Shown piece after piece: positions 37,833-64,000 of a DNA stretch of 64,000 bases; the first letter of the stretch is position 1, and each line of letters opens with the position of its first letter. The notes beneath the pieces were generated by a model. It was not told the origin of the DNA. It made no database searches and worked only from the letters and a program-made list of their open reading frames with translations. The stretch comes from Anaerosolibacter sp. GTDB taxonomy: Bacteria; Bacillota; Clostridia; Peptostreptococcales; Thermotaleaceae. Position numbers and translations under genes: made by a program. Where the stretch lies: positions 62,001-126,000 of the forward strand of contig NZ_JARBTM010000011.1 in assembly GCF_029240175.1 (NCBI RefSeq), in the 5' to 3' direction.

Positions 37833-37919
37833 TGCAGGATATTCAAAAAAGGTATAGAAATATTTTTATTTGTGGCAATACTTAGTTATATAATTTTTTA
37901 ATAATGAGGGGTGAAAAAA

Positions 37920-39242
37920 ATGGGTTTCTTGTCCTTTAGGGGTGGAGTACATCCACCACATTTTAAAGAAGCGACTACTCGCTTAAAGGTAGAGAAAGCT
38001 AAGGAACCAGCAGTTGTTACTATTCCTCTTCAGCAGCATATCGGGGCACCTTGTGAGCCGATTGTTAAAGTTGGAGATCAGGTAAAAGTAGGACAAAAGA
38101 TTGGCGAGACATCTGCATTTGTATCTACACCAGTGCATAGTAGTGTATCAGGTACGGTAAAGCAAATTGCACGTATGCTTACACCAACTGGGGAAGCTGT
38201 CTGTATAGTTATTGAATCGGATGGATTGAACACTGTTCACGAAAACGTTATCCCGAAAGGGGATATTTCGAATCTTTCCGGTAAAGAGATTTTAAGCATT
38301 ATAAAAGATGCTGGAATTGTTGGGATGGGTGGAGCTGCATTCCCAACCCATGTAAAATTGTCTCCTCCACCAGAAAAGAAGATAGAAGAAATTGTTCTTA
38401 ATGGTGCAGAGTGTGAACCTTATTTGACGGCTGACCATAGGTTAATGCTTGAAAATCCTGATGATATCATCTATGGGTTAAAAGCGATGATGAAAGTTCT
38501 AAATGTTACAAAAGCTTACATTGGTATAGAAGATAACAAACCTGATGCCATTGAAAGCATGAAAAGAGCTGTTGAGAAAGAATCAGGCATCCAAGTTGTA
38601 GGACTTCATACAAAGTATCCTCAAGGTGCTGAAAAACAGTTGATTTATGCATGTACAAAAAAAGAGGTTCCATCTGGCGGACTTCCAATGGACGTTGGTG
38701 TTGTCGTAAATAATGTAGGAACAGCTGCAGCGATTGCTAACGTGATTAAGACTGGAATGCCTTTGGTTGAAAGAATTGCTACGATTACAGGAAAAGGTAT
38801 CAAAGATCCTAAAAACCTGTTAATTAAGATTGGAACTCCATTTAAAGAAATTATTGAGCAGTGCGGTGGCTATAATGGAAATCCCGGGAAGGTTATCATG
38901 GGGGGACCTATGATGGGGCTAGCTCAATATACTGATGAAATTCCTGCGATTAAAGGAACATCAGGAATATTAGTATTATCACAAGAAGAAGCTAGATTAC
39001 CAGAACCGAAACCATGTATTCGATGTGGAAAATGTGTTGAAATTTGTCCGGCGTTTATTCAGCCGTTGTATATCAGTGCATATGCTCTGCAAAACATGCA
39101 TGAAACAGCAGAGAAGTATAACGCCCTTGACTGTATAGAATGTGGCTCTTGTTCTTTCATATGTCCTTCAAAAAGGCCATTGCTACAGTCAATAAGAGTA
39201 TCTAAGCGTGAAATTATCGCGAAGAAAAGAAAGACGAAGTAA
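37920..39242 (+). CDS. rnfC: Rnf complex subunit C
   Basis: NADH-binding, FMN- and iron-sulfur-containing subunit of the Rnf ferredoxin:NAD+ oxidoreductase, an ion-pumping complex. It has a barrel-sandwich N-terminus ('TIPLQQHIGAPCEPIVKVGD'), a Nuo51-like NADH/FMN fold ('GIVGMGGAAFPTHVKLSPP', 'LNGAECEPYLTADHRLML') and two C-terminal 4Fe-4S motifs ('CIRCGKCVEICPA', 'CIECGSCSFICPS'). 440 residues. ATG 37920 follows GAGGGGTGA; GTG 37911 is inside that site. First gene of rnfCDGEAB. Confidence 0.97.
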   Translation: MGFLSFRGGVHPPHFKEATTRLKVEKAKEPAVVTIPLQQHIGAPCEPIVKVGDQVKVGQKIGETSAFVSTPVHSSVSGTVKQIARMLTPTGEAVCIVIESDGLNTVHENVIPKGDISNLSGKEILSIIKDAGIVGMGGAAFPTHVKLSPPPEKKIEEIVLNGAECEPYLTADHRLMLENPDDIIYGLKAMMKVLNVTKAYIGIEDNKPDAIESMKRAVEKESGIQVVGLHTKYPQGAEKQLIYACTKKEVPSGGLPMDVGVVVNNVGTAAAIANVIKTGMPLVERIATITGKGIKDPKNLLIKIGTPFKEIIEQCGGYNGNPGKVIMGGPMMGLAQYTDEIPAIKGTSGILVLSQEEARLPEPKPCIRCGKCVEICPAFIQPLYISAYALQNMHETAEKYNALDCIECGSCSFICPSKRPLLQSIRVSKREIIAKKRKTK

Positions 39243-39256
39243 TGGAGGGGATTCGT

Positions 39257-40201
39257 ATGGATAATAGATTAATTGTATCTTCATCTCCCCATTTGCGGGC
39301 AGATGATTCAATTAACCGCATTATGCGGGATGTTGTAATTGCACTACTTCCGGCTACATTAGCAGGTATTTATTTTTTTAGAATGGGCGCAGTAAAAGTA
39401 ATTCTTGCAGCAATAATAGCTGCTGTTGTTACTGAGGCTGTGATTCAAAAAGTGAGGAAACAGCCTGTTACGATTAACGATTGGAGTGCTGTGGTAACAG
39501 GATTACTTCTGGCATTTAATATACCAGCTACAGCACCCTGGTGGTTACCTGTAATTGGTTCTATTTTCGCTATTGCTATCGTAAAACATACTTTTGGCGG
39601 TTTAGGCCACAATTTTATGAATCCAGCTTTGGCAGCTCGTGCTATGCTTTTGGCATCCTGGCCTGTACCTATGACTAATTGGGTTACACCTGGTGCAGAC
39701 GCTGTAAGCACAGCGACACCGTTAGCCCTGATCAGTGGTACTGAAGCGGCGGGACAGGCACTGCCTTCAATGGTAGATTTACTCATAGGGAATGTGGGTG
39801 GATGTATCGGAGAAACCTCTGCTATACTTTTAATACTAGGTGGCGTATATCTGATTTTTAGGGGTGTAATCACACCGAGAATTCCAGTGATTTATATTTC
39901 AACAGTTGCAGTGTTAACATTCGTATTGGGTGGAGGATTTAGTCTCCAATATATGATCTATCAAGTGTTAGCTGGCGGATTGATGCTTGGTGCTTTCTAC
40001 ATGGCTACCGATTATGCATCTTCACCTGTAACACCTAAAGGGCAAGTGATTTATGCTTTAGGATGTGGTATCCTAACAAGTATTATAAGACTTTATGGAG
40101 GATATCCAGAGGGAGTATCCTACTCAATACTGTTAATGAACGTGGCTGCGCCGCTTATCGATAAGTATACCAGCCCAAGAGTATTTGGGGAGGTGAAGTA
40201 A
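39257..40201 (+). CDS. rnfD: Rnf complex subunit D
   Basis: Integral membrane subunit with about nine helices, related to NqrB, that takes part in ion translocation. The covalent FMN attachment site is seen in 'DAVSTATPLALISG', where the Thr of STATP would be flavinylated by an ApbE-type transferase; an apbE gene lies at 57299. ATG 39257 follows GGAGGGG, which starts at the rnfC stop; the track start at 39242 would overlap it. Confidence 0.96.
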   Translation: MDNRLIVSSSPHLRADDSINRIMRDVVIALLPATLAGIYFFRMGAVKVILAAIIAAVVTEAVIQKVRKQPVTINDWSAVVTGLLLAFNIPATAPWWLPVIGSIFAIAIVKHTFGGLGHNFMNPALAARAMLLASWPVPMTNWVTPGADAVSTATPLALISGTEAAGQALPSMVDLLIGNVGGCIGETSAILLILGGVYLIFRGVITPRIPVIYISTVAVLTFVLGGGFSLQYMIYQVLAGGLMLGAFYMATDYASSPVTPKGQVIYALGCGILTSIIRLYGGYPEGVSYSILLMNVAAPLIDKYTSPRVFGEVK

Positions 40202-40765
40202 ATGCGAGATATAATAAGATTAGGATTAATATTATTGCTCATTACAGCTGTGGCAGCAGCAGTACTTGCATGGACCAATGATGTGACGATGGAGCCTATC
40301 GCGGATCAAGTGCTTCAAGCGAATATTACTGCCCGCCAGAGTGTCCTATCGGATGCCAGTGAATTTGAAGAGATGTCAACAGATACGTTTGCAGGTTATG
40401 CGAATGTTTTAGAAGTATATAAAGGCCTTAAAGATGGGCAAGTGGTTGGATACACTATAAAGACGAATCCTAGTGGATATGCCGGACCAATAGAAGTGAT
40501 GATCGGTATTTCTGTAGATGGAGTAATCCAAGGTGTTAGCGTAGGAAATCATTCCGAAACACCTGGATTAGGCGCAAAAGCATCCGATGACCAATTTAAG
40601 AATCAGTATAATGACAAGAAAGCTGAAGGCCAAATTGATGTTATCAAAGCTGGAACACCGAAAGATAATGAAATTATTTCAATTTCTGGCGCAACAATTA
40701 CTTCCAGAGCCGTTACAGCGGGTGTAAATGCTGCTATTCAATTATATAATGAAGCACTGAAATAG
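40202..40765 (+). CDS. rnfG: Rnf complex subunit G (FMN-binding)
   Basis: Single-pass membrane protein with an extracytoplasmic FMN_bind domain. An N-terminal helix ('LGLILLLITAVAAAVLAWTN') precedes 'GPIEVMIGISVDGVIQGVSV', 'ETPGLGAKASDDQF' and the flavinylation motif 'ISGATITSRAV', where Thr carries FMN. It passes electrons between RnfC/RnfD and RnfB/E. It starts immediately after the rnfD stop with GGGGAGGTGAAG upstream. Confidence 0.96.
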   Translation: MRDIIRLGLILLLITAVAAAVLAWTNDVTMEPIADQVLQANITARQSVLSDASEFEEMSTDTFAGYANVLEVYKGLKDGQVVGYTIKTNPSGYAGPIEVMIGISVDGVIQGVSVGNHSETPGLGAKASDDQFKNQYNDKKAEGQIDVIKAGTPKDNEIISISGATITSRAVTAGVNAAIQLYNEALK

Positions 40766-40781
40766 AATGTGGGGTGGTAAA

Positions 40782-41384
40782 ATGAAAATTGGCAATACAT
40801 TTCTAAGAGGAATTCTATATGACAATCCGATTTTTATACAATTGCTAGGTATGTGCCCAACCCTTGCAGTTACAACTTCTGCTGTAAATGGAGTGGGTAT
40901 GGGTCTTGCGACAACAGCAGTATTGTTAGGATCAAATGTGGTTATTGCGATGATAAAAAAGTTCATACCTGCTAAAATTCGTATACCTGCTTACGTTGTT
41001 GTAATAGCAACCTTTGTAACTGTTATCGGTTTATTGATGAAGGCATTTGTTCCAGCATTGGATAAAGCACTAGGCTTGTTTATCCCGTTAATTGTTGTTA
41101 ACTGTATCATTTTAGCAAGAGCAGAGGCATTTGCTTCTAAGAATTCAGTGCTTTTATCTGCAGTTGATGGAATTGGTATGGGGTTAGGATTTACAATCTC
41201 CTTAACAATACTAGGTTCAGTGAGAGAGATCCTTGGTGCAGGTTCTATATTTGGAAAAGCAATATTTGGCGCTTCATATCAACCTGCTTTGATCATGATT
41301 TTGCCTCCAGGAGCTTTCCTTGCTTTAGGATGCTTACTTGCTCTATACAACTGGACGGTTTCTAAAAAAGCAAATCAATTTTAA
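40782..41384 (+). CDS. rnfE: Rnf complex subunit E
   Basis: Membrane subunit with six predicted helices, homologous to NqrD and to RnfA, with which it forms an antiparallel pair binding an intramembrane iron centre. Family signatures are 'NPIFIQLLGMCPTLAVTTSA' with its conserved Cys, and 'IPLIVVNCIILARAEAFASK'. ATG 40782 follows GTGGGGTGG; the track start ATG 40767 lies in that site. Confidence 0.96.
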   Translation: MKIGNTFLRGILYDNPIFIQLLGMCPTLAVTTSAVNGVGMGLATTAVLLGSNVVIAMIKKFIPAKIRIPAYVVVIATFVTVIGLLMKAFVPALDKALGLFIPLIVVNCIILARAEAFASKNSVLLSAVDGIGMGLGFTISLTILGSVREILGAGSIFGKAIFGASYQPALIMILPPGAFLALGCLLALYNWTVSKKANQF

Positions 41385-41396
41385 GGGGGGATATTG

Positions 41397-41978
41397 ATGT
41401 CAGCAAGTGGATTATTTATTATATTTGTCAGTGCATTACTTGTTAATAACTTTGTTTTATCAAGGTTTCTAGGGATATGTCCTTTTTTAGGTGTTTCAAA
41501 ACAGGTTGAGACGGCTGCGGGTATGGGAATGGCCGTAACCTTCGTTATGACATTAGCCTCCATCATCACCTATCTTGTTCAAATCTTTATTTTAGATACA
41601 ATGGGCCTAGGCTACCTTCAAACAATAGCTTTTATTCTTGTTATAGCAGCATTGGTTCAATTTGTTGAGATGGTTATTCAGAAAACCAGCCCAACCCTCT
41701 ATCAAGCTTTAGGGGTGTATTTACCTCTAATCACTACAAACTGTGCTGTTTTAGGGGTTGCGTTATTAAATATTCAGTCTGAGTTTAATTTAATAGAAAC
41801 GATTGTAAATGCGATCGGTGCATCATTAGGATTCTCACTAGCGATTATCCTATTTGCAGGGATAAGAGAAAGATTAGAGATTGCAGACGTGCCAGCTGTT
41901 TTTAAAGGCTTTCCTATTGCACTCATAACAGCGAGTCTAATGTCGATTGCTTTCTTAGGCTTTACTGGACTCGTTTAG
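41397..41978 (+). CDS. rnfA: Rnf complex subunit A
   Basis: Six-helix membrane subunit paralogous to RnfE. Signatures: '[20 protein letters not shown]' and '[19 protein letters not shown]', each with a conserved Cys likely to ligate the intramembrane iron site. ATG 41397 follows AAGGGGGGAT; TTG 41394 in the track is 3 bases earlier and less likely. It lies 12 bases after rnfE. Confidence 0.96.
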
Positions 41979-41994
41979 ACAGGAGGGATACGAG

Positions 41995-42978
41995 ATGGAT
42001 TTAAATACATTATTACTTCCGGTTGCAGGATTGGGAGGATTAGGCTTGGTTTTTGGAGCTGGATTGGCATATGCTTCTCAAAAATTTGCTGTTGAGGTAG
42101 ACCCAAGGGTCGAGGCTATTCGGGATGTACTTCCAGGGGCTAACTGTGGTGGATGTGGCTATCCAGGATGTGATGGATTTGCCAATGCAGTTGCTGCTGG
42201 AAATGCACCTGTAACTGGGTGTCCAGTTGGCGGGGCAGATTGTGCTAAAAATATTGCAGAGATCATGGGTGTAGAAGCTGGAGATGCCGCAAAAAAGGTT
42301 GCCAGAGTTATTTGCAGCGGAGACACAAAAAACTGTAAAGAGAAATTTGACTATTTCGGAATTCAGGATTGTAAAGCTGCTGCAATGGTATCAGGTGGAA
42401 GCAAAAGTTGTGCTTATGGATGTTTAGGACTTGGAACATGTGTAAATGCATGTCAGTTCGATGCCATCGAAATAACGGATGGAAGAATAGCTAGAATTAT
42501 TCCAGAACGATGTACTGCATGCGGCAAATGTATTGAAGTTTGTCCAAAATCTGTGATTCACTTTGTACCCTTTGAGCAGGATGTGATCGTAGATTGTAAC
42601 AACGAAGAAGTAGGTAAGGTCGTTCGGCAAAAATGTAATGTAGGGTGTATAGCTTGCCAGATTTGTGTTAAAGCATGCCCTTTTGATGCCATGGAGTTTT
42701 CAAACAATTTGGCAAAGATCAACTATGAAAAATGTACAAATTGCATGATTTGTGCCGAAAAGTGCCCGACAAAAGCAATCTATGCGGATTTCGAAAAAAG
42801 AAGAAAGGCTGAGATTATTGAAGAAAATTGTATAGGTTGTACAATTTGTAAAAAACAGTGTCCAGTCGATGCTATTGAAGGAGAATTGAAACAAGTACAC
42901 AAGATTTTAGAAGATAAATGTATAGGTTGTGGAGCTTGTGAAGTGAAATGCCCTAAGAAAACGATTAAAATGAAATAA
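41995..42978 (+). CDS. rnfB: Rnf complex subunit B (polyferredoxin)
   Basis: Ferredoxin-accepting subunit. An N-terminal membrane helix is followed by the 'GANCGGCGYPGCDGFANAVA' iron-sulfur domain and a string of CxxCxxCxxxCP motifs ('CTACGKCIEVCPK', 'CIACQICVKACPF', 'CTNCMICAEKCPT', 'CIGCTICKKQCPV', 'CIGCGACEVKCPK'). With 327 residues it is the long Clostridial form with extra clusters compared with proteobacterial RnfB. The operon order C-D-G-E-A-B is the standard Clostridial one. Confidence 0.97.
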   Translation: MDLNTLLLPVAGLGGLGLVFGAGLAYASQKFAVEVDPRVEAIRDVLPGANCGGCGYPGCDGFANAVAAGNAPVTGCPVGGADCAKNIAEIMGVEAGDAAKKVARVICSGDTKNCKEKFDYFGIQDCKAAAMVSGGSKSCAYGCLGLGTCVNACQFDAIEITDGRIARIIPERCTACGKCIEVCPKSVIHFVPFEQDVIVDCNNEEVGKVVRQKCNVGCIACQICVKACPFDAMEFSNNLAKINYEKCTNCMICAEKCPTKAIYADFEKRRKAEIIEENCIGCTICKKQCPVDAIEGELKQVHKILEDKCIGCGACEVKCPKKTIKMK

Positions 42979-43020: not shown

Positions 43021-43201
43021 AGATCGAGTAATTATGGTATTTATATGAAAAAAATACTACTTGTCATTGAAATATCAAAATGTTAAACTTAAACTGTGTT
43101 TAAAGGAAAAACATAGTTTTCCTAAAAAAATCTCCCTATTCTTGAGTAAACTAGTTATAGAGTATGTAGATTTTGGAAAAATTATTAGTAAATGTGAGTT
43201 G

Positions 43202-43582
43202 ATGAGTGTGACAAAATGGGACAAAATTTTGATCGTTAGTATCGTCATGTTCAGTATGATTGGATTATTTATTGTCAAAGAAATTAGTGTGAATAGTGGT
43301 AACTTATATCTAGTGATTGAGGTGGAGGGCAAGGAATACAAAAAGATATCCCTTGATGCCAATAAAGAGAAGGAATTGATTGAGATTAACTCAGAAGAGG
43401 GACATAATCTAATTGAAATTGAAGGATCGAGTGTAAGAATTACAGAAGCTGATTGTAAAGATCAACTATGTGTGAAAATGGGTTGGTTAGATAGAGCCAA
43501 TCAAATCAGCATTTGCCTGCCGAACAGGGTATCAATAAAGCTAATTACCAATAAATCAGATGTTGATATTATAAGCTATTAG
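43202..43582 (+). CDS. NusG domain II protein (EetA-like)
   Basis: Membrane-anchored protein with one N-terminal helix ('ILIVSIVMFSMIGLFIVKEI') and an extracytoplasmic NusG_II beta domain ('LYLVIEVEGKEYKKISLDAN', 'VRITEADCKDQLCVKMGWLD', 'ISICLPNRVSIKLI') with the family Cys pattern. From established knowledge, such proteins with a Gx-transporter partner correspond to EetA/EetB of the Listeria electron transfer locus. ATG 43202 is preferred to the track's 43061, whose extra 47 residues are basic and precede the anchor; GTG 43208 is also possible. Operon with the next gene. Confidence 0.82.
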   Translation: MSVTKWDKILIVSIVMFSMIGLFIVKEISVNSGNLYLVIEVEGKEYKKISLDANKEKELIEINSEEGHNLIEIEGSSVRITEADCKDQLCVKMGWLDRANQISICLPNRVSIKLITNKSDVDIISY

Positions 43583-43597
43583 GGTGTGATATGATAT

Positions 43598-44128
43598 ATG
43601 AAAGTTAAAAAGCTACTGTATTTGTCGATGATCGTTTCTATCGGAATAGCGTTGCACATTATAGAATCTTCTATACCAATTCCTTTCATCGCTCCAGGGG
43701 CGAAGTTAGGGCTTGCGAATATAGTGAATTTAATTACCTTGGTAGTATTCGGGTATAAACATGCCTTTGCGGTGGCAGTTATCAGATGTTTGGTAGCTAC
43801 CCTTGGTACTGGCGCTGTAACAGGACTTCTATATAGCCTATCAGGTGCATTGTTAAGTACCTTGGTAATGTGGCTGGTATACAGAAAATTTTCTCGATAT
43901 TTTAGTCTTATTGGTGTCAGCGTATTTGGAGCTCTTGCCCATAATATTGCCCAATTAACTGTGGCAAGTATTATGATTCATAATGCTTTGATTTTTACTT
44001 ATCTTCCAGTAATGATGTTAGTCAGTTTGTTCACAGGTTATTTTGTGGGACTCACATCAAATTATGCAACTGTTCATCTAAAAACTATACTATCAAGAAG
44101 TAACAGTTCGTCAAAATTTATTATGTAA
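43598..44128 (+). CDS. Gx-transporter family membrane protein (EetB-like)
   Basis: Integral membrane protein of about six helices, of the family once named heptaprenyl diphosphate synthase component I and now Gx transporter (COG4769). It resembles ECF-transporter S components: 'IALHIIESSIPIPFIAPGAK', 'GLANIVNLITLVVFGYKHAF' and 'HNIAQLTVASIMIHNALI' are conserved. It starts 15 bases after the NusG-II gene. In Listeria its homologue (EetB) is needed for flavin-based extracellular electron transfer. Transport substrate unknown. Confidence 0.82.
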   Translation: MKVKKLLYLSMIVSIGIALHIIESSIPIPFIAPGAKLGLANIVNLITLVVFGYKHAFAVAVIRCLVATLGTGAVTGLLYSLSGALLSTLVMWLVYRKFSRYFSLIGVSVFGALAHNIAQLTVASIMIHNALIFTYLPVMMLVSLFTGYFVGLTSNYATVHLKTILSRSNSSSKFIM

Positions 44129-54613: not shown

Positions 54614-56443
54614 TTATAGATTTGCTTTTATACTCTTATTTCTAACAAAGTGTCTCCAGTTCTTCATTAACCATGGCATAATGTAATGATCTAAGCCAAA
54701 AGCACGGCCTGCTCCACCTAGACATGCGATGGAAGTTACAATGTACCAGTAGTCATATAGACCTGTAGATAGCAGGAAGTTAATATTCATTCCTATAGAA
54801 ACGATTGCAGCAATAAATGTAAATGTACCTGTTAAGAATGCAATACCAAGACCAAATTCAGTTAAAACAATCATAGTTTGGAAGAACATAGCGTTTGGAA
54901 CAATAATCGTTTCACAAATCCATGCATACCAAGCCGGTGTATTCTGTCCAATAAGATTCATACCCTGAGCAACAGCACCGGCTGCACCTTCAGCAACCTG
55001 TGAAGCACTTGTTGTAACTTCTGCAGCAGCTGTAGAAGCAGCAGCTGTAGCGTCTGCAGCAGTAGCAGCAGCCTTTTGCGCGTAGATAGAAACTTTAGAC
55101 AACCAGCCATCATTATATTTGTGAATACCTTGCATTAACCACATATATCCTAAATACATACGCATAATAACCATCCAGAAAGTAAATGTTTCAGTGGTTA
55201 GATGCTTTTTAATCATGTTATCATCTTTACGTTTATGAACAAATTGATGCTTTAAATAGCGAATAACCTGCTCAAAGCCAGCAACTTCAAATTGATAGTG
55301 AATATTTACCAAATGCTTAATAAACATAGCCATTAAGCCAGATGTTTTCATGCCCATGGTTTCAGCAACTGCATATTTACGTCCAATTGAAACCATAGTA
55401 CCGTGTAGCTTAGGTTTACACGTTTCAAGGGGTTTGTTATGAATAAGGTTGGCTATATTCTTTCCTGCACTTTTACCGGTTTGAATAGCAGATTCTACAA
55501 GTAAAGGTAGTGGCTTGCCATCTTCTTCAGTAAAGAAAGAATTATCTCCAATAAGGAATACGTTTGGATAAGCAGTTGATTGAGTATACTCATTTACCGC
55601 GATTCTTCCACGGCCTCTTTCTGCAGGAGGAAGTCCAATCTTTTCAACAAAGCTGCTTACCTTAACGCCGCCAGTCCAAATAAGTGTATTAGTAGGAACA
55701 ATGCGACCATCCTTAATTTCTAATCGATCAGATGTAACTTTCGTAACAGGCGAATTCGTCATAACTTCAACGCCATTTATTTTAAGATAGTTCATAGCCT
55801 TATCAATTAAGTCTTGAGGGTAAACCGCAAGAATCTTATCCATAGCTTCTACAACCACAAGGCGTACTTCATTTTTTGAAATGTTGTACTCTTTACATAA
55901 AACATCGCGCCATTGAATAAGTTCTCCTACCATTTCAATACCAGTAAATCCGCCACCACCTACAACAAGTGTTAGGTATTCTTTGCGTCTCTCGATATTT
56001 TGTTCCTTTGAAGCCAATTGGAACATGGTACGAATATGCTTGTTAATCTTTTTTGCATCTTCAAGAGACCAAAGGGTGAAAGAATTTTCCTGCATGCCTT
56101 CGATTCCAAAGAAAGCTGGCTCGCTGCCACAACCAACTACAAGATAATCGTAAGTATAAGTATTATTTTCAGAAGTTAAGGTCTGACCATCAAAATCGAT
56201 GGACGTAATTTCATCTTGAATGATATTTACTTTAGTGTACTTAAATATCTCATCAAGATAAATTTTTACACTTTCTTCATCAACTCGGTTACCCGCAACT
56301 TCATGAAGCTCGGTCAATAATGTGTGTCGGTTATTTTTGTCAATAATTGAAATTGAAACATCATCGTTTTTCAATTTCTTATGCAGTGTAAGTGCCGCAT
56401 CAACACCTGCGTATCCAGCACCTAATACTACAACACGTTTCAT
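54614..56443 (-). CDS. NDH-2 type NADH dehydrogenase fused to DoxX-like membrane domain
   Basis: Residues 1-400 are a type II NADH:quinone oxidoreductase: FAD-binding 'RVVVLGAGYAGVDAALTLHK', NADH-binding 'VVGGGGFTGIEMVGELIQW', and C-terminal FAD contact 'AYPNVFLIGDNSFFTEEDGK'. From about residue 420 a DoxX-like region with four helices follows ('WMVIMRMYLGYMWLMQGIHK', 'IVSIGMNINFLLSTGLYDYW'), interrupted by an Ala/Thr/Ser-rich stretch ('QKAAATAADATAAASTAAAE'). Listeria EET Ndh2 is similarly an NDH-2 with a C-terminal membrane extension. GGGGGG precedes the minus-strand ATG. Divergent from the lipoprotein-apbE unit. Confidence 0.9.
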   Translation of the reverse strand: MKRVVVLGAGYAGVDAALTLHKKLKNDDVSISIIDKNNRHTLLTELHEVAGNRVDEESVKIYLDEIFKYTKVNIIQDEITSIDFDGQTLTSENNTYTYDYLVVGCGSEPAFFGIEGMQENSFTLWSLEDAKKINKHIRTMFQLASKEQNIERRKEYLTLVVGGGGFTGIEMVGELIQWRDVLCKEYNISKNEVRLVVVEAMDKILAVYPQDLIDKAMNYLKINGVEVMTNSPVTKVTSDRLEIKDGRIVPTNTLIWTGGVKVSSFVEKIGLPPAERGRGRIAVNEYTQSTAYPNVFLIGDNSFFTEEDGKPLPLLVESAIQTGKSAGKNIANLIHNKPLETCKPKLHGTMVSIGRKYAVAETMGMKTSGLMAMFIKHLVNIHYQFEVAGFEQVIRYLKHQFVHKRKDDNMIKKHLTTETFTFWMVIMRMYLGYMWLMQGIHKYNDGWLSKVSIYAQKAAATAADATAAASTAAAEVTTSASQVAEGAAGAVAQGMNLIGQNTPAWYAWICETIIVPNAMFFQTMIVLTEFGLGIAFLTGTFTFIAAIVSIGMNINFLLSTGLYDYWYIVTSIACLGGAGRAFGLDHYIMPWLMKNWRHFVRNKSIKANL

Positions 56444-56663
56444 AATGAACCCCCCTTTAATAATAATGTTTGTTTCACAAACATGGTTAAATATTATTTT
56501 AACATTGCTGCTAATCGTATTATATCAAAAATGTAAACGGTTGTATAATAAAAAATTAATAGTGAGAAAAATTAAATTATTCATTGCTTAAAATTATTCA
56601 TCTGAAATTACAAGTATTGAATAAATATAATGATATTATAGATAAATAATTCTCATGAAAAAA

Positions 56664-56692
56664 TTGACAAGCTTTAAATTTAATTATAAAAT
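56664..56692 (+). promoter_or_regulatory. Promoter of FMN-lipoprotein gene
   Basis: TTGACA, 17-base spacer, TAAAAT (or TATAAA with 15 bases). Confidence 0.65.
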
Positions 56693-56698
56693 ATTATC

Positions 56699-56712
56699 TG
56701 TAAGCGTTTTCT
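56699..56712 (+). promoter_or_regulatory. Catabolite-responsive element (cre) for CcpA
   Basis: TGTAAGCGTTTTCT fits the consensus TGWAARCGYTWNCW at every position. It sits at the expected transcription start, where CcpA binding would repress. Confidence 0.7.
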
Positions 56713-56740
56713 AAACTATTTATTTGAAGGGGGCAATACC

Positions 56741-57211
56741 GTGAAAAAAGTTTTATCAATCGTTTTAGTTACAGTTTTAGCATTAGCTTTAGGCGTTGGA
56801 TGCGCAAAGCCAGCACCACAGCCTGAGCCAGCAGCAGCTCCAGCACCTGCAGAGCAACCAGCAGCACCAGCTGAAGATACGATTAAAGATGGTACCTATA
56901 CAGCTGCTGATGCAGAGTTTGACCAATATGGCTGGAAGCCTGAAATCAGTATTACATACACAGATGGTAAGATTTCAGAAGTAGTTTTCGAAGAAGTTAA
57001 TAAAGATGGTGCAAAGAAGAGAGATGACGCAGGTTACAATGAGCCATTTAAAGCTAAATCTGGTGTAACTGTGGGAGAAGTAGCTGATCAATTGGCAGCA
57101 GCTTTGGTTGAGAAGCAAGATCCAAATGCAGTAGATGCTGTTGCAGGTGCAACTACATCATCAGACAAGTTTAAAGAGTTAGCAGTTAAAGCAATCGAAT
57201 CAGCAAAATAG
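56741..57211 (+). CDS. FMN-binding lipoprotein (PplA-like electron carrier)
   Basis: Surface lipoprotein with lipobox 'LALGVGCAKP', an Ala/Pro/Glu-rich linker ('PQPEPAAAPAPAEQPAAPAE') and one FMN_bind domain ('GTYTAADAEFDQYGWKPEIS', 'YNEPFKAKSGVTVGEVADQL') ending in the flavinylation motif 'AVAGATTSSDKF'. The Thr would receive covalent FMN from an ApbE-type transferase, encoded directly downstream. Listeria PplA, which has two such domains, carries electrons from quinol to extracellular acceptors. 156 residues. GTG start after GAAGGGGG; promoter and cre site upstream. Confidence 0.9.
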   Translation: MKKVLSIVLVTVLALALGVGCAKPAPQPEPAAAPAPAEQPAAPAEDTIKDGTYTAADAEFDQYGWKPEISITYTDGKISEVVFEEVNKDGAKKRDDAGYNEPFKAKSGVTVGEVADQLAAALVEKQDPNAVDAVAGATTSSDKFKELAVKAIESAK

Positions 57212-57298
57212 AAACTGGTAAGTCCCAATACATTTGTATTGGGACTTATAATTATAAACCAATTTTGTAATATTTAAATGTTTAGATGGAGGATCAAG

Positions 57299-58339
57299 AT
57301 GAAAAACAAAATCCTTAAGTATTCCATACTAGCGGCTATCATAATTCTTACCATTGTACAAGTAGGTTGTACGAAAGAATTACAGATGGTAAGTGATTCT
57401 ACCTATATGTTGGGTACGTATTTGCAATTAAGTGTTTGGACCACCAATAAGCAAGAAGGAATGGATACGATTAAATCTTCATTTGAAAGAATTAAAGAAA
57501 TAGAGGACAAGATGAGTGCTAACTTGGATGAAAGTGAAATAGGCCAGATTAATTTAAATGCTGGAAAGACATATGTAGAAGTTAGTGAAGAAACGGTTGA
57601 TATAATTGAAAGAGCCATTCACTATGCAGAACTGACTAACGGAGCTTTTGATCCTGCTATCGGAAAATTAGTAAAACTTTGGGGAATAGGTACTGAAAAT
57701 GAACGTATACCTACTCAAGATGAAATTCAAAATGCCTTGCAGCTTGTAGATTATCAAAAAATTGAGTTTCAAGGAGATAATAAAGTTAAGCTCAGTGAAG
57801 CGGATATGCGAATAGACCTTGGTGGAATCGCCAAAGGGTACGCCGCCGATGAAGTTACAAAAATAATGAAGAATAAAGGCATAAAACATGCTATAATAAA
57901 TCTTGGGGGAAATGTAGTAACCCTAGGAAAAAAGGCAGATGGAACATCATGGAAAGTAGGAATTCAAGATCCATTTGAACCTACTGGTACCCATATGGGA
58001 GTTATAGAGGTTTATGATCAAACCGTAGTAACATCAGGAAATTACGAAAGATATTTTATGGCAGATGATAAAAGATATCATCATATTATTGATCCAAAAA
58101 CAGGCTATCCAGCTGAGAATGGTATTATAAGTGCTACGATTATTACAAATAGCTCGACCGATGCTGATGGACTATCAACCAGTATCTATGTACTTGGTGT
58201 TGAAAAAGGTATGCAGCTCATAGAAAGCTTAGAAAATGTAGAATGTATCATTATTACTGAAGATAAAAAGGTATATACATCTACCGGATTGACGGAGAGA
58301 TTTCAGATAATAGATAGTTCATTCCAAATTGAAAATTAA
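57299..58339 (+). CDS. apbE: ApbE flavin transferase lipoprotein
   Basis: Extracytoplasmic FAD:protein FMN transferase that attaches FMN covalently to Thr in FMN_bind and Rnf/Nqr-type proteins. Lipobox 'TIVQVGCTKE', then 'STYMLGTYLQLSVW', 'NGAFDPAIGKLVKLWGI', 'IDLGGIAKGYAADEV', 'HHIIDPKTGYPAENGI' and 'TDADGLSTSIYVLG'. 346 residues. Likely substrates in this window are the lipoprotein at 56741, RnfG and RnfD. ATG 57299 follows TGGAGGATC; the track's ATG 57278 is upstream of it. Confidence 0.95.
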   Translation: MKNKILKYSILAAIIILTIVQVGCTKELQMVSDSTYMLGTYLQLSVWTTNKQEGMDTIKSSFERIKEIEDKMSANLDESEIGQINLNAGKTYVEVSEETVDIIERAIHYAELTNGAFDPAIGKLVKLWGIGTENERIPTQDEIQNALQLVDYQKIEFQGDNKVKLSEADMRIDLGGIAKGYAADEVTKIMKNKGIKHAIINLGGNVVTLGKKADGTSWKVGIQDPFEPTGTHMGVIEVYDQTVVTSGNYERYFMADDKRYHHIIDPKTGYPAENGIISATIITNSSTDADGLSTSIYVLGVEKGMQLIESLENVECIIITEDKKVYTSTGLTERFQIIDSSFQIEN

Positions 58340-58364
58340 GCCATAGGATGAAGAAGGTGATAAA

Positions 58365-59333
58365 TTGAGTTATTGGAGCAAATATCCCGATATAGAAAAA
58401 GAAATGACAAAAGTTGAAGAACTTCTAGATCAGGCAGTGAGATCGAGAAGGAAAATAGCAGAAGATGCATCACTGGATTTGTTAAAAGCAGGTGGAAAGA
58501 GAATACGTCCAGCGTTAACAATTATATCTGCCCAGTATGGTAACTATGATAGTGATAAGGCTGTGTCTATGGCGGCCGCACTAGAATTATTCCATATGGC
58601 AACTTTGATTCATGATGATATTATTGATAATGCAAAATCAAGAAGAGGTATTGAAACAGCTCAATCAAAGTATGGCAAGGACGTTGCAGTATATACTGGA
58701 GATTATCTATTTAGCAAAGCTTTCTTATTGGCTGCAAAAGTTAACAATGGAGAAAAAATTATTCATCTTTCTAAATTCATTAAGGCCATTTGCGAAGGTG
58801 AGATAGAGCAGTATGCTTCTAAATATGATCATTCTACTTCTGTAGCTACCTACTTGAAGCGTATTAAGTACAAGACTGCCCTTTTGTTTGCCCTTTGTTG
58901 CCAAATCGGTGCTGAGACGGCAGATTGTGATGTGAAAACTGCTAGAAATTTACGTAGATTTGGAATGTCGTTAGGAACTGCATTTCAAATAAAAGATGAT
59001 TTACTGGATGTGACTTCTGAAGATGCGATTATTGGAAAACCCGCAGGTAATGATATCTTAGAAGGGATATACACTTTACCGTTGCTGTATACAATCAAAA
59101 ATAATAAACAACATGAAGATATTTTAAAACTATTAAATAAAGATAGTTTTACAAAAAAAGATGTGGCAGAAATTATTTATTTTATTCATAAATCTAATGG
59201 TATTGAAGATACGAGGAAAATGGAAGAGCGATATTATCAAAAGGCTTTAGATAGTCTGTCAAGACTATCCAGTCATCGGAATACACAGATTCTAGAAGAT
59301 CTTGTTACAAACATGAGAGATCGAATTAAATAA
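58365..59333 (+). CDS. Polyprenyl diphosphate synthase (quinone side chain)
   Basis: Trans-isoprenyl diphosphate synthase making long-chain prenyl diphosphates. First aspartate-rich motif 'LIHDDIIDNAKSRRG', second 'FQIKDDLLDVTSEDAIIGKP', and 'KAGGKRIRPALTII'. The long-chain, heptaprenyl-type class is suggested by 322 residues and by its partners. It lies 25 bases after apbE; a synthase in the Listeria EET locus (DmkB) supplies the demethylmenaquinone tail, which fits here as inference. Start is TTG 58365 after GAAGGTGAT. Confidence 0.9.
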   Translation: MSYWSKYPDIEKEMTKVEELLDQAVRSRRKIAEDASLDLLKAGGKRIRPALTIISAQYGNYDSDKAVSMAAALELFHMATLIHDDIIDNAKSRRGIETAQSKYGKDVAVYTGDYLFSKAFLLAAKVNNGEKIIHLSKFIKAICEGEIEQYASKYDHSTSVATYLKRIKYKTALLFALCCQIGAETADCDVKTARNLRRFGMSLGTAFQIKDDLLDVTSEDAIIGKPAGNDILEGIYTLPLLYTIKNNKQHEDILKLLNKDSFTKKDVAEIIYFIHKSNGIEDTRKMEERYYQKALDSLSRLSSHRNTQILEDLVTNMRDRIK

Positions 59334-59803: not shown

Positions 59804-59905
59804 TATGACATACGAGGGCAAGCTGTATTATGGTTTGTTTGACATCTATCAAACGATGTTGAATATATTTTGGTTTAAGGGGGAGTGTATGAATGTCTCA
59901 AGATG
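59804..59905 (+). CDS. Possible 33-residue leader peptide or microprotein
   Basis: ATG 59804 follows a strong GGGGGAA site and opens a 33-codon frame (MTYEGKLYYGLFDIYQTMLN...) rich in aromatic residues, which overlaps the start of the Tat-ferredoxin gene by 13 bases. The overlap would couple translation. Too short to assign; it may be fortuitous. Confidence 0.35.
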
Positions 59906-60555
59906 AAAGGAAAGGGTTTCTTGAAAGAGAAACGACGAGACGAGAGTTTTTGAAGCTAGCAGGTAAAGGTATGGCTGGGGCCGCCGTATCTGTCTCTTTT
60001 TTGAGTATGCTAGGCTTCACCCATGAGTCAGAGGCAGTGGCTGCATTTGCACTGTCGCAGGGTGTACTGATTGCTGATCGAAATCGGTGCACGGGTTGTC
60101 AACGATGTGAGCTTAATTGTACATCTTTGAATGATGGAAAAGTTCAACCGTTTATCTCAAGAGTTAAAGTAAGCAGAAATTACAATTACGGTGTGGATGG
60201 ACCTAAGCTTTCCTACTGGAAAGAAGATGGACAATACGGAAACCTATTGATGACGCCTGAAACCTGCAAGCAGTGCAAGGATCCAGCTTGTGCAAATGCA
60301 TGCCCAATGGGAGCCATTATTGCGGATCCAAAGACAGGCGCCCGCATTGTAGTGAAAGAAGATTGTGTAGGTTGTGGTAGTTGTACAAAAGCATGTCCAT
60401 GGCATCTGCCGACTGTTGATCCTGAAACAAAGAAATCATCCAAGTGTGTACTGTGTGGCATGTGTGCGTCAAATTGTCCAACAAGCGCTTTAAACATCAT
60501 TCCATGGGAAGATGTAAAAGTGGCGATGATTCGTCGTGGCTACATGTTGGGGTAG
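59893..60555 (+). CDS. Tat-signal 4Fe-4S ferredoxin (YdhY/HycB-like)
   Basis: The N-terminus bears a twin-arginine signal ('TTRREFLKLAGKGMAGAAVS') followed by a hydrophobic stretch, so the folded protein is probably exported or membrane-attached. Four 4Fe-4S motifs follow: 'CTGCQRCELNC', 'CKQCKDPACANACP', 'CVGCGSCTKACP' and 'CVLCGMCASNCP', the arrangement of DMSO-reductase/YdhY-type electron-transfer subunits. It is 47 bases upstream of an AOR gene and probably its partner. ATG follows GGGGGAG at 7 bases. In E. coli YdhY is encoded next to YdhV, an AOR homologue. Confidence 0.9.
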   Translation: MSQDERKGFLERETTRREFLKLAGKGMAGAAVSVSFLSMLGFTHESEAVAAFALSQGVLIADRNRCTGCQRCELNCTSLNDGKVQPFISRVKVSRNYNYGVDGPKLSYWKEDGQYGNLLMTPETCKQCKDPACANACPMGAIIADPKTGARIVVKEDCVGCGSCTKACPWHLPTVDPETKKSSKCVLCGMCASNCPTSALNIIPWEDVKVAMIRRGYMLG

Positions 60556-60602
60556 ATTTTGCAAATTTCAAATTGGAAAAATATAGTTTGGGGGGACAGT
60601 AA

Positions 60603-62705
60603 ATGACTAAAGTAGGCGGATGGACAGGTAAGATTTTAAGGGTAAATCTTACAAATGGAAAAATATCAACTGAAGATACAATAAAATATAAAGATTTTAT
60701 AGGTGGTATGGGGATTGGCTATAAAGTGATGTTTGATGAAGTGCCAGCTGGAACAAAGGCTTTTGATGAAAACAATAAAATTATTTTCGGAGCAGGACCT
60801 TTAACTGGATCAGGAGCACCATGTAGTTCTAGAACGAATATTACTTCTTTGCTCCCAAGCAATCCATACAATGCAGTATCTGACAGCCATATGGGTGGAA
60901 ATTTTGCTGCAATGATGAAATATGCCGGATGGGATGCAATCATTGTTGAAGGTGCTTCTTCCAAACCAGTATGGCTGCGCATAGAAGATGACCAGGTATC
61001 GCTGGAGGATGCTTCTGCTGTATGGGGGCAGGGAATATTTAAATCAACTGCTGAAATAGCAAGCATTATCGGAAATGAGGCCTCCATTGCTGCCATTGGG
61101 CAAGCCGGTGAAAATATGGTAAATCTTTCTGTGATCATGAATGGTACTTCCCATTCTGCTGGCGGCCACGGGGGCGTATTAGGATCCAAAAAATTAAAGG
61201 CCATTGCTATAAAAGGTACTGGTGCAGTACATATAGCTGCTCATAAATATGAGTTGTTGAAATTAAATGAATACATGATGAAAGAGATCATTGGTGCCAA
61301 CAATCAACACGTAGTACCAAGAACTCCGCAGCCTTGGGCAGAATATCACAACAGCGGCAGTCGATGGCTATCAAGAAAAGGTCTATACTGGGGTGGAGCA
61401 GAGACGCCGATCGAAACAGGAGAAAATCCTCCAGGTGATATGAAAAAAGTAGGCTTCAGAACGATGAAAGCAGTAATGGACTTGGGTCCTGTAGCTGAAA
61501 AATATACAATTAGGATGGGTGGATGTCAATCTTGTCCGATTAGATGTCATTCACAGTTAAAAGTTCCACATCTTGAAAAATATGGATTGTCACCTTACGT
61601 TTCCAATACCTGTGTTGGTTTCAGTGGACCAAATGGCGTTATGATCAAAGGAGTAACTGACCAATTTGAAGAAGGCGATAAGTCAATGATGGGCAAGATT
61701 GTTGGGGCGCAACTGACAGATGATTATGGCGTATGGTGTAACTATGGATTGATAGGAAAAGACTTTAAATATGCTTATAATACAGGTATATTAAAGAAAG
61801 TATTGCCTAAGGAAGAGTATGAGAGCATTCCATGGGATAAGTTAGAGGCAGGAGATCCAGCATTTTTGTTAGATTTCTATAGAAGAATTGCCTTTAAAGA
61901 GGGTGAATTAAGTCATCTTGGAGACGGTACATATTGGATTGCACAACGCTGGAACTATGGAGATGATTTCTGGCATGGTAACGACTATGGTGTATGGTCA
62001 CCACTAGGATTCCCAAAACACCATGCCAATGAGTCTGGTAGTCAAGTAGGGGCCCTAATATCCTGCATGTTCAACCGAGATGCCCAGTGTCACTCCCATA
62101 TGAACTTTATTGGGTCTGGATTGCCAATTGCCATTCAAAAAGAAATAGCTGCAGAGGTTTGGGGATCGCCTGATGCTATTGATGAGCCTGCAAATTATAC
62201 ACCTATGAATGAATACAAAGCCAAGTTTGCAAAATGGAGTATCATTCGCAACTGCCTTCATGACTCTTTAACGCTATGTAACTGGATGTGGCCTATGACA
62301 GTTTCCCCTGTGATGGCTAGAAACTATAGAGGAGATACAGCTTTAGAGGCCAAATTCCTAAGCTTGATTACAGGAGAACAAATCAGTGAAGAGGATTTAG
62401 ACTTAGCTGGAGAAAGAATCTTCACATTGCATAGAGCTCTGACAGTAAAACAAATGGGTACGATTGACATGAGAACAAAACATGATGTAATGAATGACTG
62501 GGTATATGATGTAGATCCTGACAAGAAGGCATTTACTCCAGGAACTATCAAAATGGATAGAAATGATATGCAGATTGCGCTTACCATGTTCTATAAAGAA
62601 ATGGGCTGGGATGAAAAAACAGGAGCACCTACAAAAGAAACATTGATTCGATTAGGCTTACAAGATGTTGCCAATGAGCTTGAAAGCTTGAAGCTTTTAC
62701 CTTAG
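60603..62705 (+). CDS. Aldehyde ferredoxin oxidoreductase (YdhV-like, W/Mo pterin)
   Basis: AOR-family enzyme with a bis-pterin tungsten or molybdenum centre and one 4Fe-4S cluster; typical members oxidise aldehydes to acids or run in reverse with ferredoxin. N-terminal domain: 'GKILRVNLTNGKISTEDTIK', 'GPLTGSGAPCSSRTNITSLL', 'GGNFAAMMKYAGWDAIIVEG'. Cluster ligands: 'GGCQSCPIRCHSQLKVP', 'NTCVGFSG' and probably 'RNCLHDSLTLCNW' near the C-terminus. 700 residues. No Tat signal of its own, so it would have to be carried by its Tat partner or stay cytoplasmic. GGGGGGACAG precedes the ATG. Confidence 0.93.
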   Translation: MTKVGGWTGKILRVNLTNGKISTEDTIKYKDFIGGMGIGYKVMFDEVPAGTKAFDENNKIIFGAGPLTGSGAPCSSRTNITSLLPSNPYNAVSDSHMGGNFAAMMKYAGWDAIIVEGASSKPVWLRIEDDQVSLEDASAVWGQGIFKSTAEIASIIGNEASIAAIGQAGENMVNLSVIMNGTSHSAGGHGGVLGSKKLKAIAIKGTGAVHIAAHKYELLKLNEYMMKEIIGANNQHVVPRTPQPWAEYHNSGSRWLSRKGLYWGGAETPIETGENPPGDMKKVGFRTMKAVMDLGPVAEKYTIRMGGCQSCPIRCHSQLKVPHLEKYGLSPYVSNTCVGFSGPNGVMIKGVTDQFEEGDKSMMGKIVGAQLTDDYGVWCNYGLIGKDFKYAYNTGILKKVLPKEEYESIPWDKLEAGDPAFLLDFYRRIAFKEGELSHLGDGTYWIAQRWNYGDDFWHGNDYGVWSPLGFPKHHANESGSQVGALISCMFNRDAQCHSHMNFIGSGLPIAIQKEIAAEVWGSPDAIDEPANYTPMNEYKAKFAKWSIIRNCLHDSLTLCNWMWPMTVSPVMARNYRGDTALEAKFLSLITGEQISEEDLDLAGERIFTLHRALTVKQMGTIDMRTKHDVMNDWVYDVDPDKKAFTPGTIKMDRNDMQIALTMFYKEMGWDEKTGAPTKETLIRLGLQDVANELESLKLLP

Positions 62706-62780
62706 TAAATGGGATATAGGATAAGGGGATATTATCCCCTTATCCACATATTTATAGAGAATACAAGGGGGAAAGCCAAC

Positions 62781-63329
62781 GTGGAAAAAGACAAAAAAGA
62801 TAAGCTAATGGTTACTGCTGATTTTGTCAGAAAGGCATCTATGGAGGTACGACTTGTAAAACCAGATGATTTTTTTGCAGAACCTATTTCTATGGATCAA
62901 GAGCAATTACTTGATATATTGGAACAAGTGTTCAACAACCCAGATTTCGCTGATATCAAAACAATTCATGGCTCAGAAAGTCAATACTTCTATTCTTCAA
63001 ATCATATGACTGAAAGCTATGCTAAGATGCTGGTCCGTATAGAGGATAAGGATTTACTAAAAATGGTGGCTGAAACTGTACGCCATGAGTCAAAAATTTA
63101 TCCTCGGCCTACAGATGGAAAGCTTTTTTCAACATCACCTTTTAGCTTTAATGCTGAGCAGTTAGATGATGTCGTAAGTCAACTAAAGAATCAAGAGAAC
63201 TATCAAGATATTCAAGAAACCAGGGCTTCCAATGGAGCAATGTATTTATACTCTAATAGGTTTATGACGAGGGAGCATGCGATTGCTTTAACCGAATGGA
63301 TTGAGGTGCTCCAGCATGAAACATCATAA
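62781..63329 (+). CDS. YdhW-like protein of the AOR operon
   Basis: Not a well-characterised family. About 182 residues, soluble, with an internal repeat: 'MDQEQLLDILEQVFNNPDFA..SQYFYSSNHMTESYAK' resembles 'FNAEQLDDVVSQLKNQENYQ..MYLYSNRFMTREHAI'. The position after ferredoxin and AOR mimics YdhW in the E. coli ydhYVWXUT operon, so I suggest equivalence as inference. GTG 62781 has AAGGGGGAAAG upstream; the track start at 62709 adds 24 unlikely residues. Confidence 0.6.
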   Translation: MEKDKKDKLMVTADFVRKASMEVRLVKPDDFFAEPISMDQEQLLDILEQVFNNPDFADIKTIHGSESQYFYSSNHMTESYAKMLVRIEDKDLLKMVAETVRHESKIYPRPTDGKLFSTSPFSFNAEQLDDVVSQLKNQENYQDIQETRASNGAMYLYSNRFMTREHAIALTEWIEVLQHETS

Positions 63330-63347
63330 AATTGGGGGTCAATATCT

Positions 63348-64000
63348 ATGTCTGACAATATAATTAAGAGAAAATCTAACATCTGTGAGGAAGCTCCCGT
63401 AGATTTAATATTAAATGGTCAAAAGCTAGTAACCTTTATGTGTACCCCTATGAATCTGAAAGAATTAGCCTTGGGACATTTATATAGCAGAGGTCTTATC
63501 AAAAAAACGCAAGATGTGTTAACCTTGGCAGCCTGTGAAGATATGAAAAAAATATATGTTATAACTTCAAATAAAATAATAGATGAAGAGTACTCAATAT
63601 CCAGTGTGCTAGCAAGCAGCTGTGGCAGCGGTACAATCTTTACGGAAAGACTTGTGAATGGTGGGAAAAACGATTCAGTATATACAATTACCGTAGAAAA
63701 ATTGAAAGAGCTTTCCATTGAGATGTTTAAAAAAGCTGAATTGTATAAGAAAATGGGCGGTATGCATTGCGCATGTTTAAGTGATGGAAATAAAATAGCG
63801 ATTCTAAGGGAAGATGTTGGAAGGCATAATGCTGTAGATAAGGTAATAGGAAAGGCTCTGTTCCAAGAAATTGATTTCAGCAAAGCCCTTATATTTACAA
63901 CGGGACGTATTTCATTGGATATGGTATTGAAAGCCGTTGCCGCAGGATTTCCTATTATTGTTTCTAGGAGTATTCCCACCAACTTGGCGTTAGATTTAGC
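63348..64000 (+). CDS. fdhD: FdhD sulfurtransferase, cut by window end
   Basis: Not in the ORF track: the frame runs off the window, and the listed 63419-63982 minus-strand ORF is its shadow. FdhD passes sulfur from IscS to the molybdenum/tungsten centre of formate dehydrogenases. Blocks seen: 'NLKELALGHLYSRGLI', 'MGGMHCACLSDGN', 'REDVGRHNAVDKVIGKA' and 'TTGRISLDMVLKAVAAGFPI'. The usual CxxC is 'SSCGSG', keeping only the first Cys. Start ATG 63348 after GGGGGTC. Its place beside AOR suggests sulfuration of that enzyme or of an FDH further on. Confidence 0.92.
   Translation, partial: MSDNIIKRKSNICEEAPVDLILNGQKLVTFMCTPMNLKELALGHLYSRGLIKKTQDVLTLAACEDMKKIYVITSNKIIDEEYSISSVLASSCGSGTIFTERLVNGGKNDSVYTITVEKLKELSIEMFKKAELYKKMGGMHCACLSDGNKIAILREDVGRHNAVDKVIGKALFQEIDFSKALIFTTGRISLDMVLKAVAAGFPIIVSRSIPTNLALDL

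Follow-up and report, generated by a model that had tools for sequence, protein, structure and literature searches.

The stretch of DNA analysed here (the window, 64,000 nucleotides of contig NZ_JARBTM010000011.1) comes from Anaerosolibacter sp., a soil anaerobe, and contains at 54614-59333 a block of four genes whose homology to the Listeria genes for flavin-based extracellular electron transfer (EET) makes such a function very likely. Viewed together with the rest of the genome, the block is likely to form part of a clostridial variant of Gram-positive flavin-based EET in which the cell probably does not synthesise the naphthoquinone ring itself and may import it. The four open reading frames lie at the coordinates given in an original prediction that had been derived from the letters of the window, and profile matches agree with the names it gave:

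54614-56443, minus strand: NDH-2 (Ndh2-type, with C-terminal membrane extension), 609 amino acids (aa); Pyr_redox_2 8e-40
56741-57211, plus strand: PplA-like FMN_bind lipoprotein, 156 aa; FMN_bind 4e-5, NCBIfam PplA model 6e-27
57278-58339, plus strand: FmnB-type ApbE, flavin adenine dinucleotide (FAD):protein flavin mononucleotide (FMN) transferase, 353 aa; ApbE 2e-99
58365-59333, plus strand: DmkB/HepT-type long-chain polyprenyl diphosphate synthase, 322 aa; polyprenyl_synt 3e-67

Upon comparison with the Listeria EET locus, seven of its eight genes were matched; for FmnA, no match appeared in the window or the other genome stretches compared, a genome-wide search for FmnA/EcfT not having been made. 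The predicted equivalence of the block with Listeria Ndh2, PplA, FmnB and DmkB stands insofar as the closest characterised relative of each protein is its Listeria EET counterpart, but has to be qualified for a PplA of half size and a split locus. Ndh2 aligns with Listeria Ndh2 at 39% identity over 620 columns, that is, over its full length including the membrane extension with hydrophobic stretches at about residues 519-558. This C-terminal part is alignable between the two proteins and absent from the respiratory NDH-2 enzymes compared, whose alignment stops at about residue 390. In a plasmid collection, the top Ndh2 match was an L. monocytogenes record with an annotated EET locus (99% covered); two records of this collection, NZ_CP030101.1 (2.9 Mb) and NZ_CP154629.1 (2.6 Mb), resemble whole chromosomes labelled as plasmids. 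Since the split between EET and respiratory NDH-2 recurred in only 43% of bootstrap trees, with deep branches that the Ndh2 tree does not separate, we regard the tree as weak support and the full-length alignment as the stronger argument. FmnB is 39% identical to Listeria FmnB over 357 columns and finds its best solved structure in 7esa (1.4e-75), which we take to be one of a set of Listeria FmnB structures; its gene adjoins that of the PplA-like protein, and its N-terminal signal has a lipobox-like QVGC. DmkB scored 305 bits with the HepT model, is 42% identical to Listeria DmkB over 319 columns and, of the three polyprenyl synthases that the genome encodes, is the one closest to it. An Ndh2 paralogue that likewise has the membrane extension (66-68% identity), encoded on contig C1 (G000:C1:118169-119953; L053:9115-10959), is devoid of EET neighbours and present in genomes G001 and G011 as well.

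The block is kept with 80-88% identity and the same gene order in A. carboniphilus (locus L012), and also in relatives of the family (L056-L058), which argues against a chance arrangement. A. carboniphilus DSM 103526 was the only named relative retrieved by an Ndh2 search of genome contigs (Ndh2 88% identical), and it shares with the window the gene order from RodA through FdhD. At Rfam thresholds, no riboswitch was detected in window positions 30000-64000, a transfer RNA being the sole match. Downstream of the block, at 59893-63998, follow a ferredoxin of the twin-arginine translocation (Tat) type (YdhY-like), an aldehyde ferredoxin oxidoreductase (scoring 1184 bits with its equivalog model), a YdhW-like protein and FdhD; these genes are kept in A. 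carboniphilus and, as we take it, resemble E. coli ydhYVW.

The inventory of EET genes in the original prediction was incomplete, as it overlooked EetA and EetB homologues (43061-44128) that lie within the window 10 kb upstream of the block, behind an Rnf operon whose subunit names we assigned by gene order:

37911-42978, plus strand: Rnf operon (RnfC, D, G, E, A, B), immediately preceding EetA/EetB
43061-43582, plus strand: EetA homologue (NusG domain II); PF07009 107 bits, 33% identity to Listeria EetA
43598-44128, plus strand: EetB homologue (Gx / 'Hpre_diP_synt_I' family); PF07456 3e-47, 38% identity to Listeria EetB

No EetA homologue besides this one was found in the genome. For 43598-44128, the Pfam name is heptaprenyl diphosphate synthase component I; the Listeria member of the family is EetB, the FAD export subunit. 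By sequence, the protein is probably an energy-coupling factor (ECF) S-subunit for FAD export, and RnfG, which combines an FMN_bind match with a SISGAT motif, is likely a second target for flavinylation by ApbE. Because Listeria requires EetB, an ECF S-subunit, to export FAD, and eetB is often found beside Rnf in Clostridia (colocalised in 572 genomes; both PMC9973259), the single EetA/EetB pair probably supplies FAD for RnfG and PplA alike.

According to the mechanism we envisage, membrane-bound Ndh2 would oxidise reduced nicotinamide adenine dinucleotide (NADH) and pass the electrons to a (demethyl)naphthoquinone in the membrane, the tail of which would be made by DmkB; FAD would leave the cell via EetB, FmnB would use it to attach FMN to PplA on the outside, and FMN-PplA would hand the electrons to extracellular acceptors. 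The homology of the EET genes is in line with the predicted flow of NADH electrons through a quinone to lipoprotein flavins, but the quinone step cannot be assumed, given that no MenD or MqnA/MqnD was found. As predicted, DmkA lies outside the window; a homologue was located on contig C10 (G000:C10) that scored 376 bits with the dihydroxynaphthoate (DHNA)-prenyltransferase model (cut-off 289) and is 37% identical to Listeria DmkA over 164 columns, the Listeria record offering only a 167-residue open frame at this place. A third UbiA protein of the genome is encoded on C5. In this genome, which is 96.5% complete, MenD yielded low-scoring matches only (65 bits versus a cut-off of 244.2) and MqnA/MqnD no PF02621 match at all; the strongest PF02621 match that 198 genomes from the order yielded reached 43.9 bits, the yardstick for a true MqnA being two proteins with 244 and 250 bits. 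With neither MenD nor MqnA/MqnD found, the known routes to the naphthoquinone ring appear to be missing from the genome. At L013:15562-17892, contig C10 also encodes a second ApbE together with a 372-aa lipoprotein for which neither a real family match nor a flavinylation motif was found; the pair recurs in L065, L067 and L068, and sits with DmkA, HepT and Ndh2 in the latter two. A 147-aa FMN_bind protein on C10 is without a flavinylation motif as well.

A possible source of the ring emerged on contig C41, where genes for MqnL, MqnP and UbiX are followed by those for an NMT1-type lipoprotein, an ATP-binding cassette (ABC) ATPase and a permease. MqnL scored 653 bits relative to a curated cut-off of 495.9 for menaquinone decarboxylases and UbiX was above its cut-off; the MqnP-like protein remained below the cut-offs of the MqnP exception models. 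Contamination of C41 is unlikely, as its whole length runs collinear with G005:C9, a contig from the same family, and it is close to the window in its tetranucleotide profile, yet with the lowest similarity among the genome's own contigs compared. Three relatives of the order (L060, L062, L063) have a single cluster that unites Ndh2, EetA, EetB, HepT, MqnL and MqnP with the ABC genes, and such clusters from Ndh2 to the ABC genes occur in other classes too (L122, L149, L154). All 18 genomes of the order with an MqnL above the cut-off have a part of the importer beside it (all three parts in 15, an incomplete set in 3).

For a broader view, we tallied the neighbourhoods of 103 MqnL loci in Bacillota, comprising the order set and 85 usable loci from a sample of the phylum. 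A full or partial importer defines 41 loci as importer-type (62 others), a full importer is present at 37 (66 others), and the thresholds for gene presence were chosen after part of the loci had been seen. MqnA/C/E adjoin none of the 37 full-importer loci versus 19 of the 66 others (Fisher p 1e-4; as the species are related, such p-values make the association look stronger than it is, and the counts weigh more). MenG was likewise found at 0/41 importer-type loci versus 18/62 others, whereas Ndh2 adjoins 11/41 versus 0/62 and FmnB 8/41 versus 0/62, making the importer-type context the only one in which MqnL adjoins Ndh2, FmnB or EetAB. Leaving out the order of the window, MqnA/C/E stand beside 0/22 full-importer loci versus 19/63 others, and Ndh2 beside 6/23 importer-type loci versus 0/62. 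In eight of the 41 importer-type loci, the cassette has as neighbours a class III aminotransferase and a U32-family protein that matches TrhP and UbiU, each weakly (L063, L084, L086, L087, L090, L091, L092 and L138); U32 occurs at none of the 62 others.

The lack of a known ring route, together with the presence of a transporter beside the EET genes in relatives, raises the possibility that the ring is imported. For salvage of a quinone precursor as such, we see roughly even chances. Either MqnP or DmkA would attach the DmkB-made tail to the imported dihydroxynaphthoate; where MqnP does so, MqnL would carry out the decarboxylation. The more specific proposal, which we advance tentatively and hold a little short of an even bet, is that the NMT1-type importer is dedicated to taking up a soluble precursor of the naphthoquinone, with 1,4-dihydroxy-6-naphthoate as the most likely one. 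On this proposal, a group of Bacillota that lack ring synthesis by the futalosine or Men route would run flavin-based EET on the salvaged ring and, as the cassette has no linked methyltransferase, would go no further than demethylmenaquinone.

Several observations speak against this picture of an EET system fed by an imported ring. The importer's binding protein resembles NMT1/SsuA proteins, and genome G001 of the same genus has no MqnL above the cut-off, which means that not every member of the genus carries the cassette. EET in L. plantarum proceeds when DmkA and DmkB are dispensed with (PMC9888254), and a quinone linkage is therefore not a given. As to the lipoprotein, its length (156 aa) is half that of Listeria PplA (299 aa, two motifs), its DAVAGAT deviates at the fourth place from the flavinylation consensus D-x-x-[S/T]-G-A-[S/T], and the close relatives G007 and G011 keep Ndh2, FmnB and DmkB with no FMN protein recognised beside the block. 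The predicted PplA with a flavinylation motif is accordingly upheld as an FMN_bind lipoprotein, but with one domain, an imperfect motif (within DAVAGATTS) and half the size. Its FMN_bind score of 24.7 bits exceeds the Pfam cut-off of 22, while the 94.6 bits obtained with the NCBIfam PplA model stay below the 325-bit cut-off; it has a lipobox (LGVGC), shares 34% identity with the first domain of Listeria PplA and 44% with the second, and has solved-structure relatives in 3o6u and 2kzx. The first motif of Listeria PplA, EVVSGAT, itself lacks the Asp, the effects of motif changes listed in a review do not include that of the change at the fourth place, and relative G005 encodes a 265-aa version with two standard motifs. 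The single domain, as well as the two relatives without a recognised FMN protein, would also suit an internal or envelope role, in which Ndh2 recycles NADH via quinone to a flavoprotein, and this in turn supplies electrons to some other extracytosolic reductase or to redox maintenance, in keeping with the many extracytosolic redox tasks of flavinylated proteins (PMC8238504). We consider this unlikely, since the best match of every gene is to the Listeria EET locus, and the species description of A. carboniphilus bears 'iron-reducing' in its title, as cited in PMC12016495.

Somewhat less improbable, though still rather unlikely, is that FmnB and EetA/EetB primarily serve Rnf, with Ndh2 and PplA as a minor add-on. 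The position of EetA/EetB directly behind Rnf, the frequent eetB-Rnf colocalisation in Clostridia and the standard S-G-A-T that is found in RnfG but not in PplA would be in line with this; yet the ApbE of the block adjoins PplA and Ndh2 instead of Rnf, C10 offers a second ApbE, and use by Rnf and by EET need not exclude each other. A stronger contender, albeit one that we would not favour, takes MqnL-MqnP-UbiX-ABC for another quinone or aromatic pathway, the importer cargo being unrelated to the ring or the ring arising via an unrecognised route. The NMT1/SsuA-like binding protein, along with the U32 protein and class III aminotransferase beside a part of the importer-type loci, may hint at such a pathway. 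The decarboxylase, however, scores well above the curated cut-off for the menaquinone enzyme, and late genes plus an importer with the early genes missing are what salvage of a quinone precursor predicts.

Gram-positive flavin-based EET is already established, and the block by itself adds a further member whose genes are laid out differently; of greater interest is the question of the quinone. Two papers state that no transporter for a soluble menaquinone precursor had been described or annotated (PMC5738691, PMC4746308) and a third that the quinone uptake pathways of L. plantarum are yet to be identified (PMC10746273). The importer-linked cassette, of which a limited literature search returned no description, names candidate genes for this missing uptake and would tie quinone cross-feeding to metal reduction. 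Relative to the flavin-based EET (FLEET) locus of Listeria (L100; fmnA, dmkA, fmnB, pplA / ndh2, eetA, eetB, dmkB), the window shares the divergent pplA-fmnB / ndh2 arrangement, the extended Ndh2, FmnB, DmkB and both EetA and EetB. It differs in the single FMN domain of its PplA (two in Listeria), in the place of dmkB downstream of fmnB, in the 10-kb distance to EetA/EetB, which follow Rnf, and in having DmkA as well as an Ndh2 paralogue (about 66-68%) on other contigs. With the end of the futalosine pathway (PMC4746308), the system has the late enzymes MqnP, MqnL and MqnM (UbiX) in common; unlike that pathway, no MqnA/MqnD was found in the genome, and this type of cassette adjoins an ABC importer rather than MqnA/C/E or MenG. 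The FLEET of L. plantarum, which lacks quinone synthesis (PMC8837199, PMC10746273), is similar in combining EET genes and a DHNA-type prenyltransferase with no recognisable ring pathway; what sets the present system apart from it is the ABC importer with MqnL/MqnP/UbiX, which in relatives shows linkage to EET genes.

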